DNA of 64,000 nucleotides from Bernardetiaceae bacterium (GTDB lineage Bacteria; Bacteroidota; Bacteroidia; Cytophagales; Bernardetiaceae). Below are positions 22,249-54,323 of the stretch, piece by piece (position 1 is the stretch's first letter; each line of letters opens with the position of its first letter). The position numbers and the translations under genes were made by a program. The stretch is taken from positions 1-64,000 of the forward strand of contig JAFIER010000039.1 of the NCBI GenBank assembly GCA_020832465.1, in the 5' to 3' direction. The notes beneath the pieces are model-generated. The model saw nothing but the letters and a program-made list of their open reading frames with translations. It was not told the DNA's origin and did not search any database.

Positions 22249-24054
22249 ATGGAAACTATTGAAAGAAACAGAGAAGCCCTCAAAGGAGGTGAGTTTTTGA
22301 TTCGCGAATCAGAAGCATCGGATATTTTCACCCCTGAGGAGTTTTCGGAGGAGCAGCGTATGATGGCTGACTCGAGCCGTACTTTTGTAGATCGCGAAGT
22401 TCACCCACACGCAGATCGTATGGACGCACTCGAAGAGGGCTTCATGGAGTCGCTTTTAGACAAAGCAGGCGAGCTTGGAATGCTCGGCGTATCCGTACCT
22501 GAAGAGTACGGTGGGTTAGGTATGAACTTCAACACTTCTATGCTTTTGGCAGATGTTATCGGTGCAGGCGGTTCGTTTTGTACAGCATTTGGCGCACAGA
22601 CAGGTATCGGCACTTTGCCTATTTTGTATTATGGCACAGAAGAGCAAAAGCAAAAATATTTGCCTAAACTCGCTACTGGCGAATACAAAGCTTCTTACTG
22701 CCTTACCGAACCAGATGCGGGTTCTGATGCTAACTCTGGCAAAACCAAAGCAGTGCTCTCTGCCGACGGAAAAACTTACCACATCACAGGACAAAAAATG
22801 TGGATAACGAATGCTGGTTTTGCAGATATTTTTATTGTTTTTGCTCGTATTGAAGACGATAAAAACCTTACTGCCTTCATCGTAGAGAAAGGTTTTGGCA
22901 ATATTACAATGAACGAAGAAGAGAAGAAAATGGGTATCAAAGGCTCTTCTACTCGTCAAGTATTCTTCAACGAAACGCCCGTACCAGTAGAAAATATGCT
23001 TGCAGGGCGTGGTGAAGGCTTTAAAATTGCCGTAAATATTCTCAATATCGGACGCTTAAAGCTTGGTGCTGGTGTGATTGGTGGCTGTAAGTATGTCATT
23101 TCACAAGCTGCACAATATGCTAACGAGCGCAAGCAGTTCGGACAGTCTATTGGTAATTTTGGTGCTATTAAGTACAAATTAGCCCAAATGTCTGCCCGTA
23201 CTTACGCTATTGAATCGGCTTGCTACCGTGCAGGCGAGGACGTAGATAATAAAGTAAAAGATTTGAAAGCTAAAGGCATGGAGGATGCCGAAGCAAAGCT
23301 CAAAGGTATTGAGCAGTTTGCTATCGAAGCTGCTATTTTGAAAGTTCACGGTTCTGAGGTATTAGACTATGTAGTGGACGAAGGCGTTCAGATTTATGGC
23401 GGTATGGGCTTCTCGGCTGATGCACCTATGGAACGCGCTTATAGAGATGCACGTATTTCACGTATTTATGAAGGTACGAACGAAATCAACCGCATGCTTT
23501 TAGTGGGTATGCTTTTGCGCCGTAGCATCAAAGGTGAACTTGATATTTTTGAGCACGCAAAAGCCGTTGGAGAAGAGCTTATGGGTGTGCCTTCTTTTGA
23601 AACTCCTGATGATTCTGAGTTCTTTGCCAAAGAAAAAGCAGTACTCAAGAATATGAAAAAAGCAGTATTGATGACGCTTGGTAAAGCTGCATTGACTTTC
23701 AAAGAAAATATCAATGACGAGCAAGAAATCTTAATGGCTATTGCCGATATGATTATCGAGACTTACGTAGCAGAATCTACCATTTTGCGCACCGAAAAAC
23801 TCGTAGGCGTGCGTGGTGAAGAGGCTTGCCGTGGACAAATTGAAATGAGCCGTCTCTACCTCAACTATGCTGTAGAAATTTTGGCTACAAAAGGACGTGA
23901 GGCTATATCGAGCTTTGCCACAAGCGACGAGATGCGTGTGATGCTCATGGGGCTTAAAAGATTTACAAAAATCGACCCTATCAATATGAGAGATACACGA
24001 CGTGAAATTGCTAATATTACATTAGCAAAAAGCGAATATGCTTTTGATATTTAA
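22249..24054 (+). CDS. Acyl-CoA dehydrogenase (very-long-chain-like, C-terminal extension)
   Basis: A 601-residue flavoprotein for the first step of fatty acid beta-oxidation. The N-terminal domain ends in GVSVPEEYGGLGM near residue 82. YCLTEPDAGSDANSG near 153 and MWITNAGFADIFIVFARI near 184 are FAD and substrate blocks. The C-terminal part has the catalytic-base region VQIYGGMGFSADAPMERAYRDARISRIYEGTNEI near residues 380-414 (blocks YGGMGF and YEGTNEI). The final 170 residues are an extra helical domain as in VLCAD-type enzymes. It is monocistronic, with a good terminator. Confidence 0.92.
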   Translation: METIERNREALKGGEFLIRESEASDIFTPEEFSEEQRMMADSSRTFVDREVHPHADRMDALEEGFMESLLDKAGELGMLGVSVPEEYGGLGMNFNTSMLLADVIGAGGSFCTAFGAQTGIGTLPILYYGTEEQKQKYLPKLATGEYKASYCLTEPDAGSDANSGKTKAVLSADGKTYHITGQKMWITNAGFADIFIVFARIEDDKNLTAFIVEKGFGNITMNEEEKKMGIKGSSTRQVFFNETPVPVENMLAGRGEGFKIAVNILNIGRLKLGAGVIGGCKYVISQAAQYANERKQFGQSIGNFGAIKYKLAQMSARTYAIESACYRAGEDVDNKVKDLKAKGMEDAEAKLKGIEQFAIEAAILKVHGSEVLDYVVDEGVQIYGGMGFSADAPMERAYRDARISRIYEGTNEINRMLLVGMLLRRSIKGELDIFEHAKAVGEELMGVPSFETPDDSEFFAKEKAVLKNMKKAVLMTLGKAALTFKENINDEQEILMAIADMIIETYVAESTILRTEKLVGVRGEEACRGQIEMSRLYLNYAVEILATKGREAISSFATSDEMRVMLMGLKRFTKIDPINMRDTRREIANITLAKSEYAFDI

Positions 24055-24090
24055 AATAAATTTTGGATGAAGAAAGCGACAAAATTTATC

Positions 24091-24127
24091 AAACTCCACT
24101 ATCTGGTTCAGGTAGTGGAGTTTTTTT
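24091..24127 (+). terminator. Rho-independent terminator
   Basis: AAACTCCACTA(TC) pairs with GGTAGTGGAGTTT around a TGGTTCA loop, followed by T residues, 37 bases after the acyl-CoA dehydrogenase stop. Confidence 0.85.
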
Positions 24128-24272
24128 ATGTGATGAAAAACCAGAAATAACACATCTTACAAAATAATCCTTGTCCTTAGTGTAATATTTATGGCAAAGC
24201 GTGTACATTTTTTTAAGTGATGGCTAAGTGGCATATTTTTGTTGATTATAGGAATAGTGCAATCCCTGAACT

Positions 24273-24305
24273 CCCCTCCTTTTTAAGGAGGGGCAGGGGT
24301 GGTTG
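24273..24305. repeat. REP-like GC-rich motif (CCCCTCCTT...AAGGAGGGGCAGGGG)
   Basis: CCCCTCCTT and AAGGAGGGG form a 9-bp stem with a 3-base loop, followed by CAGGGGTGGTTG. It is sharply GC-rich in an AT-rich setting. Motifs of this kind are dispersed in many Bacteroidota and cyanobacterial genomes and are sometimes linked to REP-associated transposases. Only one copy is in the window. Confidence 0.55.
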
Positions 24306-24520
24306 AAAGACTACATAATAGCATAATTACATTTGCATTAGCACAAAGATACAAAAAAACAAGAATAAAAGGGAAGGAACTTGATATTGATTTTGAACGT
24401 TTTATAAAAACAAAATTCTTTTTAAAAAGAGTAAAAAGTCTTTACAAATCTTTCAAAAAGTCTAAACTGTTTTTTTTCAAAAAAAATTTTAAACCCTCAA
24501 TTTAAATAAATTTGTAAAAA

Positions 24521-24688
24521 ATGAACAAATCTCAACTTGCCGAATTATACGGAGTCTCAACAGTAACGCTTAATAAATGGCTCAAAGAAAGAGGTTTATA
24601 TGTACGTCACGAAAGCAATATGACCCCTAAAAGATTAAACGAAATTTTTGAAAAGCTTGGTGTACCAATAAATCATAGCAAATTATAG
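24521..24688 (+). CDS. Small helix-turn-helix protein, 55 residues
   Basis: Starts MNKSQLAELYGVSTVTLNKW, a short helix-turn-helix (QLAELYGVS, turn, VTLNKWLKE). The second half MTPKRLNEIFEKLGVP resembles the tail of the small DUF4248-type HTH proteins common in Bacteroidota mobile and accessory regions. There is no other domain, so it is probably a DNA-binding regulator. It sits 44 bases upstream of the structured region at 24732 and could be part of the same accessory unit. A start with no clear ribosome-binding site is normal for this phylum. Confidence 0.75.
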   Translation: MNKSQLAELYGVSTVTLNKWLKERGLYVRHESNMTPKRLNEIFEKLGVPINHSKL

Positions 24689-24731
24689 CTGTTTTATTTG
24701 CTTTTTTATAGGTATTTATGTACATTTGCTT

Positions 24732-24836
24732 GTCTCCTTTTTGAAAATAAAGCTATCAAAAGAAATTTGAGTTGCAAGAGTAGCGGTGCGAGTCCGCTTT
24801 CTTTATTTTATGAAGGAGACACCACTTGTGACTCAA
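24732..24836 (+). ncRNA. Candidate structured RNA / 5' leader with pseudoknot potential
   Basis: GTCTCCTT and AAATAAAG (24732-24752) pair with CTTTATTT and AAGGAGAC (24801-24820) as two 8-bp stems joined by an internal loop. TTGAGTTGCAAG (24767-24778), inside the loop, pairs at 10 of 12 positions with CTTGTGACTCAA (24825-24836) outside it, an H-type pseudoknot layout. A separate hairpin, AGCGG-TGCGAGT-CCGCT (24782-24798), looks like a tRNA T arm, and ACCA follows the closing stem. It may be a regulatory leader of the next gene; no known RNA family is recognised. Confidence 0.5.
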
Positions 24837-24855
24837 TTATTTAAACTTTAATGTT

Positions 24856-25068
24856 ATGTCTCCTTCAAATTGTAATGATGATATTTTCGAAGATTACGGG
24901 CACATATATGATTCTTATAGCAAAGAGAGAATCGAAGAATTGTTTGATAATATCTTGTATTTCGTAGCAACAAGTAAGCAAAGTGATGCACCTGTTAATT
25001 TGCCTACTGTTTATGATTTTTTATTCTTATTAAAAAAGCATTTTAAGCATCGTATTAAGAAAGAGTAA
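24856..25068 (+). CDS. Hypothetical acidic protein, 70 residues
   Basis: Not recognised. Starts MSPSNCNDDIFEDYGHIYDS; the N-terminal half is acidic and the C-terminus basic (LKKHFKHRIKKE). Predicted mostly helical, soluble. The start region GTCTCCTTC (24858-24866), overlapping the ATG, is the exact complement of GAAGGAGAC at 24812-24820 in the leader, so translation could be controlled by RNA folding. A terminator follows 10 bases after the stop, which supports a real short transcript. Confidence 0.55.
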   Translation: MSPSNCNDDIFEDYGHIYDSYSKERIEELFDNILYFVATSKQSDAPVNLPTVYDFLFLLKKHFKHRIKKE

Positions 25069-25077
25069 AACTTTTAT

Positions 25078-25115
25078 AAAAGTCCGTATTATCATAGTAG
25101 ATATTACGGACTTTT
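25078..25115 (+). terminator. Rho-independent terminator
   Basis: AAAAGTCCGTA pairs with TACGGACTTTT around a 16-base loop that has its own weak pairing. It ends the 24856 gene and is symmetrical enough to act on both strands. Confidence 0.8.
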
Positions 25116-25144
25116 CTATGAAAAGTACAACAAATAGAAGCAGA

Positions 25145-25179
25145 AATTAGGGGGGTAAAAATTGAGTACCCCCCTAATT
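25145..25179. other. Perfect 13-bp GC-rich inverted repeat
   Basis: AATTAGGGGGGTA and TACCCCCCTAATT around a 9-base loop (AAAATTGAG). The run of six G and six C is unusual for this genome. No T tract follows, so ordinary termination is unlikely. The surrounding 25116-25364 holds no gene. Confidence 0.55.
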
Positions 25180-25368
25180 GCAGATGTAAGAAAAATCAAA
25201 AAAAAGAAAGCAGATTGGAACTAACTTCAGGCGGTAAAACGTTAAAAAAGAGTAGTGATGTAAATAACGTGTAAGAAATCGGCTGGGTTTTGATAAAAAA
25301 GGATTATTTTAAAGATGTATTCTTCTTTCTCCAAAGCTAAATCCCTGATAAACAGAAGGAAAGATACG

Positions 25369-25433
25369 ACATTTCTTAAAGAAATGTTATTTCTGAAACT
25401 ATCTAAGCCAATTTACTAACTTGGCGTACACCC
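25369..25433. repeat. Repeat family C, right-end copy with AAATAACATTTCT core
   Basis: A CGACATTTCTT/AAGAAATG hairpin, then TTATTTCTGAAACTATCTAAGCC and the conserved right end ACTAACTTGGCGTACACCC. The left end is missing. It ends 18 bases before the rarA stop. Confidence 0.65.
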
Positions 25434-25450
25434 GCATAAGATAAGCAATA

Positions 25451-54144: not shown

Positions 54145-54217
54145 GATTCCGTAGCTCAGTTGGTAGAGCATCTCCCTTTTAAGGAGAGGGCCCTGGGTTC
54201 GAGTCCCAGCGGGATCA
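54145..54217 (+). tRNA. tRNA-Lys (anticodon TTT)
   Basis: Acceptor GATTCCG pairs with CGGGATC (one G-T), D arm GCTCAGTTGGTAGAGC, anticodon loop CTTTTAA in a TCTCC/GGAGA stem, and T arm CTGGGTTCGAGTCCCAG. 73 bases; CCA is not encoded. Confidence 0.96.
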
Positions 54218-54236: not shown

Positions 54237-54320
54237 GCTCACATGGTGGAATTGGTAGACACGCCATCTTGAGGGGGTGGTGGGCGCAAGCCCGTGAGCG
54301 TTCGACTCGCTCTGTGAGCA
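54237..54320 (+). tRNA. tRNA-Leu (anticodon GAG)
   Basis: Acceptor GCTCACA pairs with TGTGAGC; the anticodon loop TTGAGGG sits in a CCATC/GGTGG stem, the long variable arm TGGGCGCAAGCCC identifies a class II tRNA, and T arm is GAGCGTTCGACTCGCTC. 84 bases, no CCA encoded. It lies 19 bases after tRNA-Lys and shares its transcript. Confidence 0.95.
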
Positions 54321-54323
54321 CTC

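Follow-up and report, generated by a model that had tools for sequence, protein, structure and literature searches.

A candidate two-state translational leader ahead of a small gene in a Bacteroidota helix-turn-helix cassette

Here, we describe three helices encoded ahead of, and reaching into, a gene for a 70-aa protein in a 64-kb stretch of Bacteroidota DNA (the window). One strand can pair either with a segment far upstream (helix H1) or across the start codon (H3), and a further helix (H2) crosses both; this joint arrangement is non-random and strand-specific. We tentatively read 24731-24867 as a cis-acting two-state translational switch in the mRNA leader of the 70-aa gene, a reading to which we give somewhat less than an even chance. 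Judging from its sequence, the leader appears to be a real orphan candidate.

Results

Helices and genes of the cassette

The leader lies between two small genes of a cassette with the following features.

24521-24688, forward strand: gene for a 55-aa helix-turn-helix (HTH) protein, first in the cassette; an open reading frame with weak HTH matches in Pfam and PHROGs
24697-24728, forward strand: Bacteroidota-type promoter-like site TTTG-N20-TACATTTG, an exact match to TTTG/TAnnTTTG
24731-24740, forward strand: 5′ arm of H1, TGTCTCCTTT, a 10-bp helix with 24812-24821
24744-24752, forward strand: 5′ arm of the inner closing stem, AAAATAAAG, a 9-bp helix with 24801-24809
24767-24778, forward strand: 5′ arm of H2, the candidate pseudoknot helix, TTGAGTTGCAAG, 12 contiguous pairs with 24825-24836
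24782-24798, forward strand: terminator-like hairpin AGCGG-TGCGAGT-CCGCT, then TTCTTTATTTT, from a terminator scan
24801-24809, forward strand: 3′ arm of the inner closing stem, CTTTATTTT, within the U-rich tail of the hairpin
24810-24851, forward strand: possible 13-codon upstream ORF, MKETPLVTQLFKL, read from the sequence alone
24811-24821, forward strand: common arm, either the 3′ arm of H1 (24812-24821) or the 5′ arm of H3 (24811-24821)
24825-24836, forward strand: 3′ arm of H2, CTTGTGACTCAA, pairing with 24767-24778
24856-25068, forward strand: gene for the 70-aa protein, no family assigned, homologous to the 136-aa ORF of a paralogous cassette
24857-24867, forward strand: 3′ arm of H3, TGTCTCCTTCA, an 11-bp helix across the start codon
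25078-25118, forward strand: terminator-like hairpin AAAAGTCCGTA...TACGGACTTTT after the 70-aa gene, -20.6 kcal/mol for 25070-25125
25121-25395, no strand assigned: conserved right flank with the vestigial 3′ end of an ORF like that of the paralogous cassette, 95% identical to L029 842-1116

The last pair of H1 is T-G. H2 contains two central G-U pairs, both of its non-Watson-Crick pairs being G-U on the coding strand, and crosses H1 as well as H3. H3 spans the ATG of the 70-aa gene (24856-24858) and is mutually exclusive with H1, the strand 24812-24821 being common to the two. Stacking energies are -18.7 for H1 and -18.3 for H2. An earlier note on this DNA had built a pseudoknot-capable leader from the segments GTCTCCTT (24732-24739), GAAGGAGAC (24812-24820) and GTCTCCTTC (24858-24866). 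These segments are indeed present where it placed them, in helices 1-3 bp longer than it claimed, and both the crossing second helix and the mutually exclusive helix across the start codon are confirmed as complementarities. The note took the upstream segment for an identical 9-base copy of that at the start codon; it reads GTCTCCTTT, with 8 bases matching, although the exclusive complementarity is real. Likewise, both parts of the closing stem exist, the inner one continuing H1, but the full stem is unlikely to form together with H2: by a geometric estimate, once the inner stem is made, only 14 nt (24753-24766) would remain to bridge it, H1 and H2.

The same note likened the hairpin at 24782-24798 to a tRNA T-arm. 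Its loop keeps four of the five T-loop identities (T54, C56, R57 and A58) and lacks T55, but ARAGORN reports nothing at the leader, no tRNA model matches at E<=10, and the hairpin scores as terminator-like instead, so that likeness to tRNA or tmRNA was rejected. Elsewhere in the window, ARAGORN calls a tRNA-Leu (gag) at 54237-54321 that falls below the gathering score of the Rfam tRNA model; of this pair of neighbours, the tRNA-Lys is the only one called by both programs.

The HTH gene matches Pfam HTH_3 below the cut-off (E 0.0011) and has a weak match in PHROGs. The 70-aa protein could not be assigned to any Pfam, PHROGs or NCBIfam family; its AlphaFold model is all-helical and of low confidence (pLDDT 67.7), and a fold search with that model gave no match below E 1. 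The open frame is kept in both copies of the cassette, which speaks for the 70-aa ORF being a genuine gene.

Chance expectation

Dinucleotide shuffles of 24728-24870 (500 and 4000) served as the null for the helix arrangements. The best single helix was matched in 1 of 500 shuffles, whereas neither the best crossing pair nor the best arm-sharing pair was matched in any of the 500. For the three helices together, the weakest measures -18.3 kcal/mol and none of 4000 shuffles attained even -12, statistics that are post hoc and concern one locus, the arrangement having been noticed prior to testing. When 6386 tiles from the two strands of the window are ranked, the three-helix arrangement comes first, even though its best-scoring tile, 24721-24863, truncates H3 and scores -14.4. 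The crossing pair by itself only just leads the window (-18.3 against -17.9 for the next tile) and the ordinary nested folding energy of the leader is unremarkable (z -1.69); thus, what is unusual is the three helices taken jointly.

Promoter-like site and predicted folding

The promoter-like site fits the published Bacteroidota sigma consensus (PMC7366714). It would start a transcript at about 24733, at or inside the 5′ arm of H1, TACATTTG ending 3 nt short of that helix; since 22 sites of the TTTG/TAnnTTTG type occur on both strands of the window, the site is suggestive only. Its counterpart in the paralogous cassette reads TAAATTTA, and a second promoter-like site, TTG-N22-TACATTTG, lies at 24303-24335, about 185 nt ahead of the HTH gene, and is conserved in that cassette. 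The possible upstream ORF, whose start context is weak, overlies the 3′ arms of both H1 and H2, ending 4 nt ahead of the ATG of the 70-aa gene.

In minimum-free-energy folds of a transcript growing from 24733, H1 appears at end 24821 (-25.0), H2 at 24840 (-25.7) and H3 at 24870 (-30.9). Over 24733-24930, the nested ensemble gives H3 a probability of 0.995, and the final nested fold covers the AUG. The folding programs used exclude pseudoknots; the energy of the pseudoknot is a hand sum. Forming a pseudoknot costs roughly 10 kcal/mol. With this cost set against the stacking of H1 and H2 plus the -6.3 of the hairpin, the pseudoknot state comes out near the H3 fold, and the leader may therefore be bistable.

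A paralogous cassette with a different core

A second copy of the cassette, about 1.1 kb long, is present in the same genome on contig C83 (window 24291-25395 against L029 1-1116). The left flank (24291-24727), which includes the HTH gene, is 97% identical between the copies, and the HTH protein itself agrees at 95% identity, with its helices unchanged, whereas the core (24728-25120) is unrelated at the DNA level. Nevertheless, the 136-aa protein of C83 is homologous to the 70-aa protein (E 7.7e-7, 32% over 57 aa), and the DNA of its last codons persists in the window as non-coding sequence past the terminator hairpin. Different genes adjoin the two copies: the window copy lies beside what we take to be an acyl-CoA dehydrogenase-like gene and a RarA-like ATPase gene, the C83 copy beside a presumably porin-like gene; by this comparison, the two appear to be separate loci with an exchanged core. 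The pattern suggests that a variable gene has been swapped between fixed flanks, and there is no transposase. Interspersed palindromic repeats with many genomic copies, CTCCCCTCCTTTTTAAGGAGGGGCAGGGGTGGTTG (24273-24308) and ACATTTCTNNNAGAAATGTTATTTCT (25370-25403), border the cassette, and contig C83 breaks at the first of them.

The gene-proximal leaders can be aligned only loosely, and the block 24731-24821 (about 90 nt) is then missing from C83. Since the paralog lacks this hairpin block, the leader is specific to the window copy; in the sole leader comparison at hand, the entire block is absent, as opposed to its arms having drifted. The earlier note saw here a compact regulated unit, with an HTH gene upstream and a terminator downstream. 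Both of these are in place, as is the promoter-like site, but in C83 the HTH gene and a small-gene homologue persist without the block, which weakens the case that the whole unit depends on the leader RNA.

Search for relatives

Against Rfam (4227 models, including those of tRNA, tmRNA, riboswitches and ribozymes, at the gathering threshold), the window yields only a tRNA at 54145-54217, and at E<=10 nothing plausible appears over 24050-25450. The leader belongs to no described Rfam family, in line with the earlier note, which had called it unlike known classes and proposed this check. The note also proposed seeding a genome search with the leader: a single-sequence covariance model, comprising the nested part with H2 omitted, recovered the query only from 391 genomes of the order and 365 of the class, with no leader homologue, the three best other matches being two terminators and a coding-like stretch.

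A DNA search of the genomes found no other copy of the leader, and the cassette core gave only short, chance-level matches in phages and plasmids. Genome contigs yielded no relative of the 70-aa or the HTH protein, and viral contigs none of these two or of the 136-aa protein; in phages and plasmids, the 136-aa protein gave nothing below E 0.2 and the HTH protein nothing clear. A profile search with the two small proteins across the order and phylum returned no credible relative. Distant HTH proteins, at about 50% identity or less, do occur in the order, and the regions downstream of them are unrelated in the cases inspected. Behind a related 63-aa HTH gene of a same-family genome, a non-coding stretch (L039 1690-1840) has AGAGTTTATGAA/TTCATAAACTCT as its closing stem, a ATAGCCGTA/TACGGCTAT stem inside and a run of T; it may be a further structured RNA that follows a small HTH gene.

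Two element types were rejected. A MITE or interspersed hairpin repeat does not fit, because the pattern TGTCTCCTT-N55-85-AAGGAGACA occurs once in the genome and there is no other DNA copy; nor does a type III toxin-antitoxin system, which would combine tandem RNA repeats with a downstream ToxN/CptN/TenpN endoribonuclease, since the sequence reads as a single RNA without tandem repeats and searches of Pfam, NCBIfam and PADLOC revealed no toxin.

Discussion

A possible switch and its alternatives

The predicted folding offers mutually exclusive helices, one of them over the start site, as expected of a translational switch. We infer a transcript and a direction of switching as follows. The promoter at 24697-24728 would start an RNA at about 24733, in which the 5′ arm would pair with 24812-24821 (H1) as the RNA emerges and 24767-24778 would afterwards pair with 24825-24836 (H2). 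Held by both upstream segments as a pseudoknot, 24812-24836 would leave the AUG free (on); were the hold absent or undone, 24811-24821 would pair with 24857-24867 (H3) and bury the AUG (off). Candidate triggers are a ligand, a protein such as that of the HTH or the 70-aa gene, or ribosomes translating the possible 13-codon ORF, which overlies both 3′ arms. In favour of the switch, we count the rarity of the joint arrangement, the promoter-like site, the predicted order of folds and the position of the block between paralogous flanks, with the strands that H2 and H3 pair it to found beyond its limits, in the gene and the leader segment next to it; against it, we count the absence of a leader homologue, the modest nested z-score, the weak start context of the upstream ORF and the fact that C83 does without the block.

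The alternative that survives best, although we consider it unlikely, is a neutral inverted-repeat insertion or quasi-palindrome, whereby the 91-bp block 24731-24821 would be a small hairpin element with no regulatory role, and the H2 and H3 matches accidents or template-switch copies. A 22-bp imperfect terminal inverted repeat (18/22 pairs) bounds exactly the block missing from C83, where the paralog retains its gene, and other interspersed palindromic repeats exist in the genome. However, the terminal-repeat pattern is unique in the genome, and thus not that of a multi-copy element, and H2 and H3 tie the block to outside sequence by 11-12 bp each, which is rare by chance.

Transcription attenuation seems to us rather improbable. 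The hairpin at 24782-24798 and its U-rich tail would act as an intrinsic terminator stopping most transcripts near 24806, with an antiterminator formed by pairing of the tail (24801-24809) or by H2 taking 24776-24778 from the extended stem. The hairpin passes the terminator scan (-6.3 kcal/mol, or -9.8 with the flanking pairs of 24776-24803), its U tract is paired by the inner closing stem, and long 5′ UTRs that carry short ORFs and resemble attenuation leaders have been reported in Bacteroides (PMC7366714). Yet the core stem has only 5 pairs, the U tract is interrupted, a shuffled region yields 0.5 such sites in the same scan, and H3 over the start codon is left unexplained.

More doubtful still is a DNA operator, in which repeated TGTCTCCTT(CA) sites, two direct and one inverted, would bind the HTH protein or another regulator. 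One 9-11 bp word does occur three times within 137 bp adjoining the HTH gene, but the C83 HTH protein, 95% identical and with the same helices, faces an intergenic region without the word, and H2 is unexplained, its two G-U positions being mismatches in DNA. Finally, we give very little credence to a small RNA of about 75-105 nt, trans-acting or an RNA antitoxin-like partner, made from the promoter in place of a leader: the predicted RNA closes the stem with its 5′ end and has a terminator-like hairpin inside, but tandem repeats of the type III antitoxin kind are lacking, the 70-aa protein has no toxin family match, and H3 requires the gene itself.

Returning to the translational switch, a broader claim, which we rate as improbable, is that it represents an undescribed Bacteroidota leader class, in which two separated upstream segments would sequester the AUG-pairing strand as a pseudoknot, start-codon control would operate without a Shine-Dalgarno sequence, and the leader would travel with the exchangeable core of a small HTH cassette.

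Comparison with known systems

Shine-Dalgarno sequences are largely absent in Bacteroidota (PMC7366714), so that little is known of how leaders in this phylum switch translation. A short leader able to mask the start codon itself would lend itself to testing such control. Also of interest is the apparent swap of a gene core between flanks that are nearly identical, in a cassette with no transposase.

Translational riboswitches and autoregulatory mRNA pseudoknots, such as preQ1-II, SAM-II and the S15 and S4 operator pseudoknots, resemble the present case in that a pseudoknot in the 5′ leader competes with, or lies near, the translation start. Here, however, the AUG itself, not a Shine-Dalgarno sequence, would be blocked, and the leader has one known copy, no Rfam match and no known ligand or conserved aptamer. 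The IncI repY/repZ pseudoknot provides an analogy from leader-peptide control, although here there is no antisense RNA or replication gene and the upstream ORF is putative. As in leader-peptide control with reinitiation (PMC4833913), a short ORF overlies the pairing arms, with its stop 4 nt before the ATG. With intrinsic-terminator attenuators, the locus shares an in-leader hairpin with a U-rich tail and a competing pairing; unlike in those systems, the hairpin is weak, and the strongest alternative helix lies beyond it, at the start codon.
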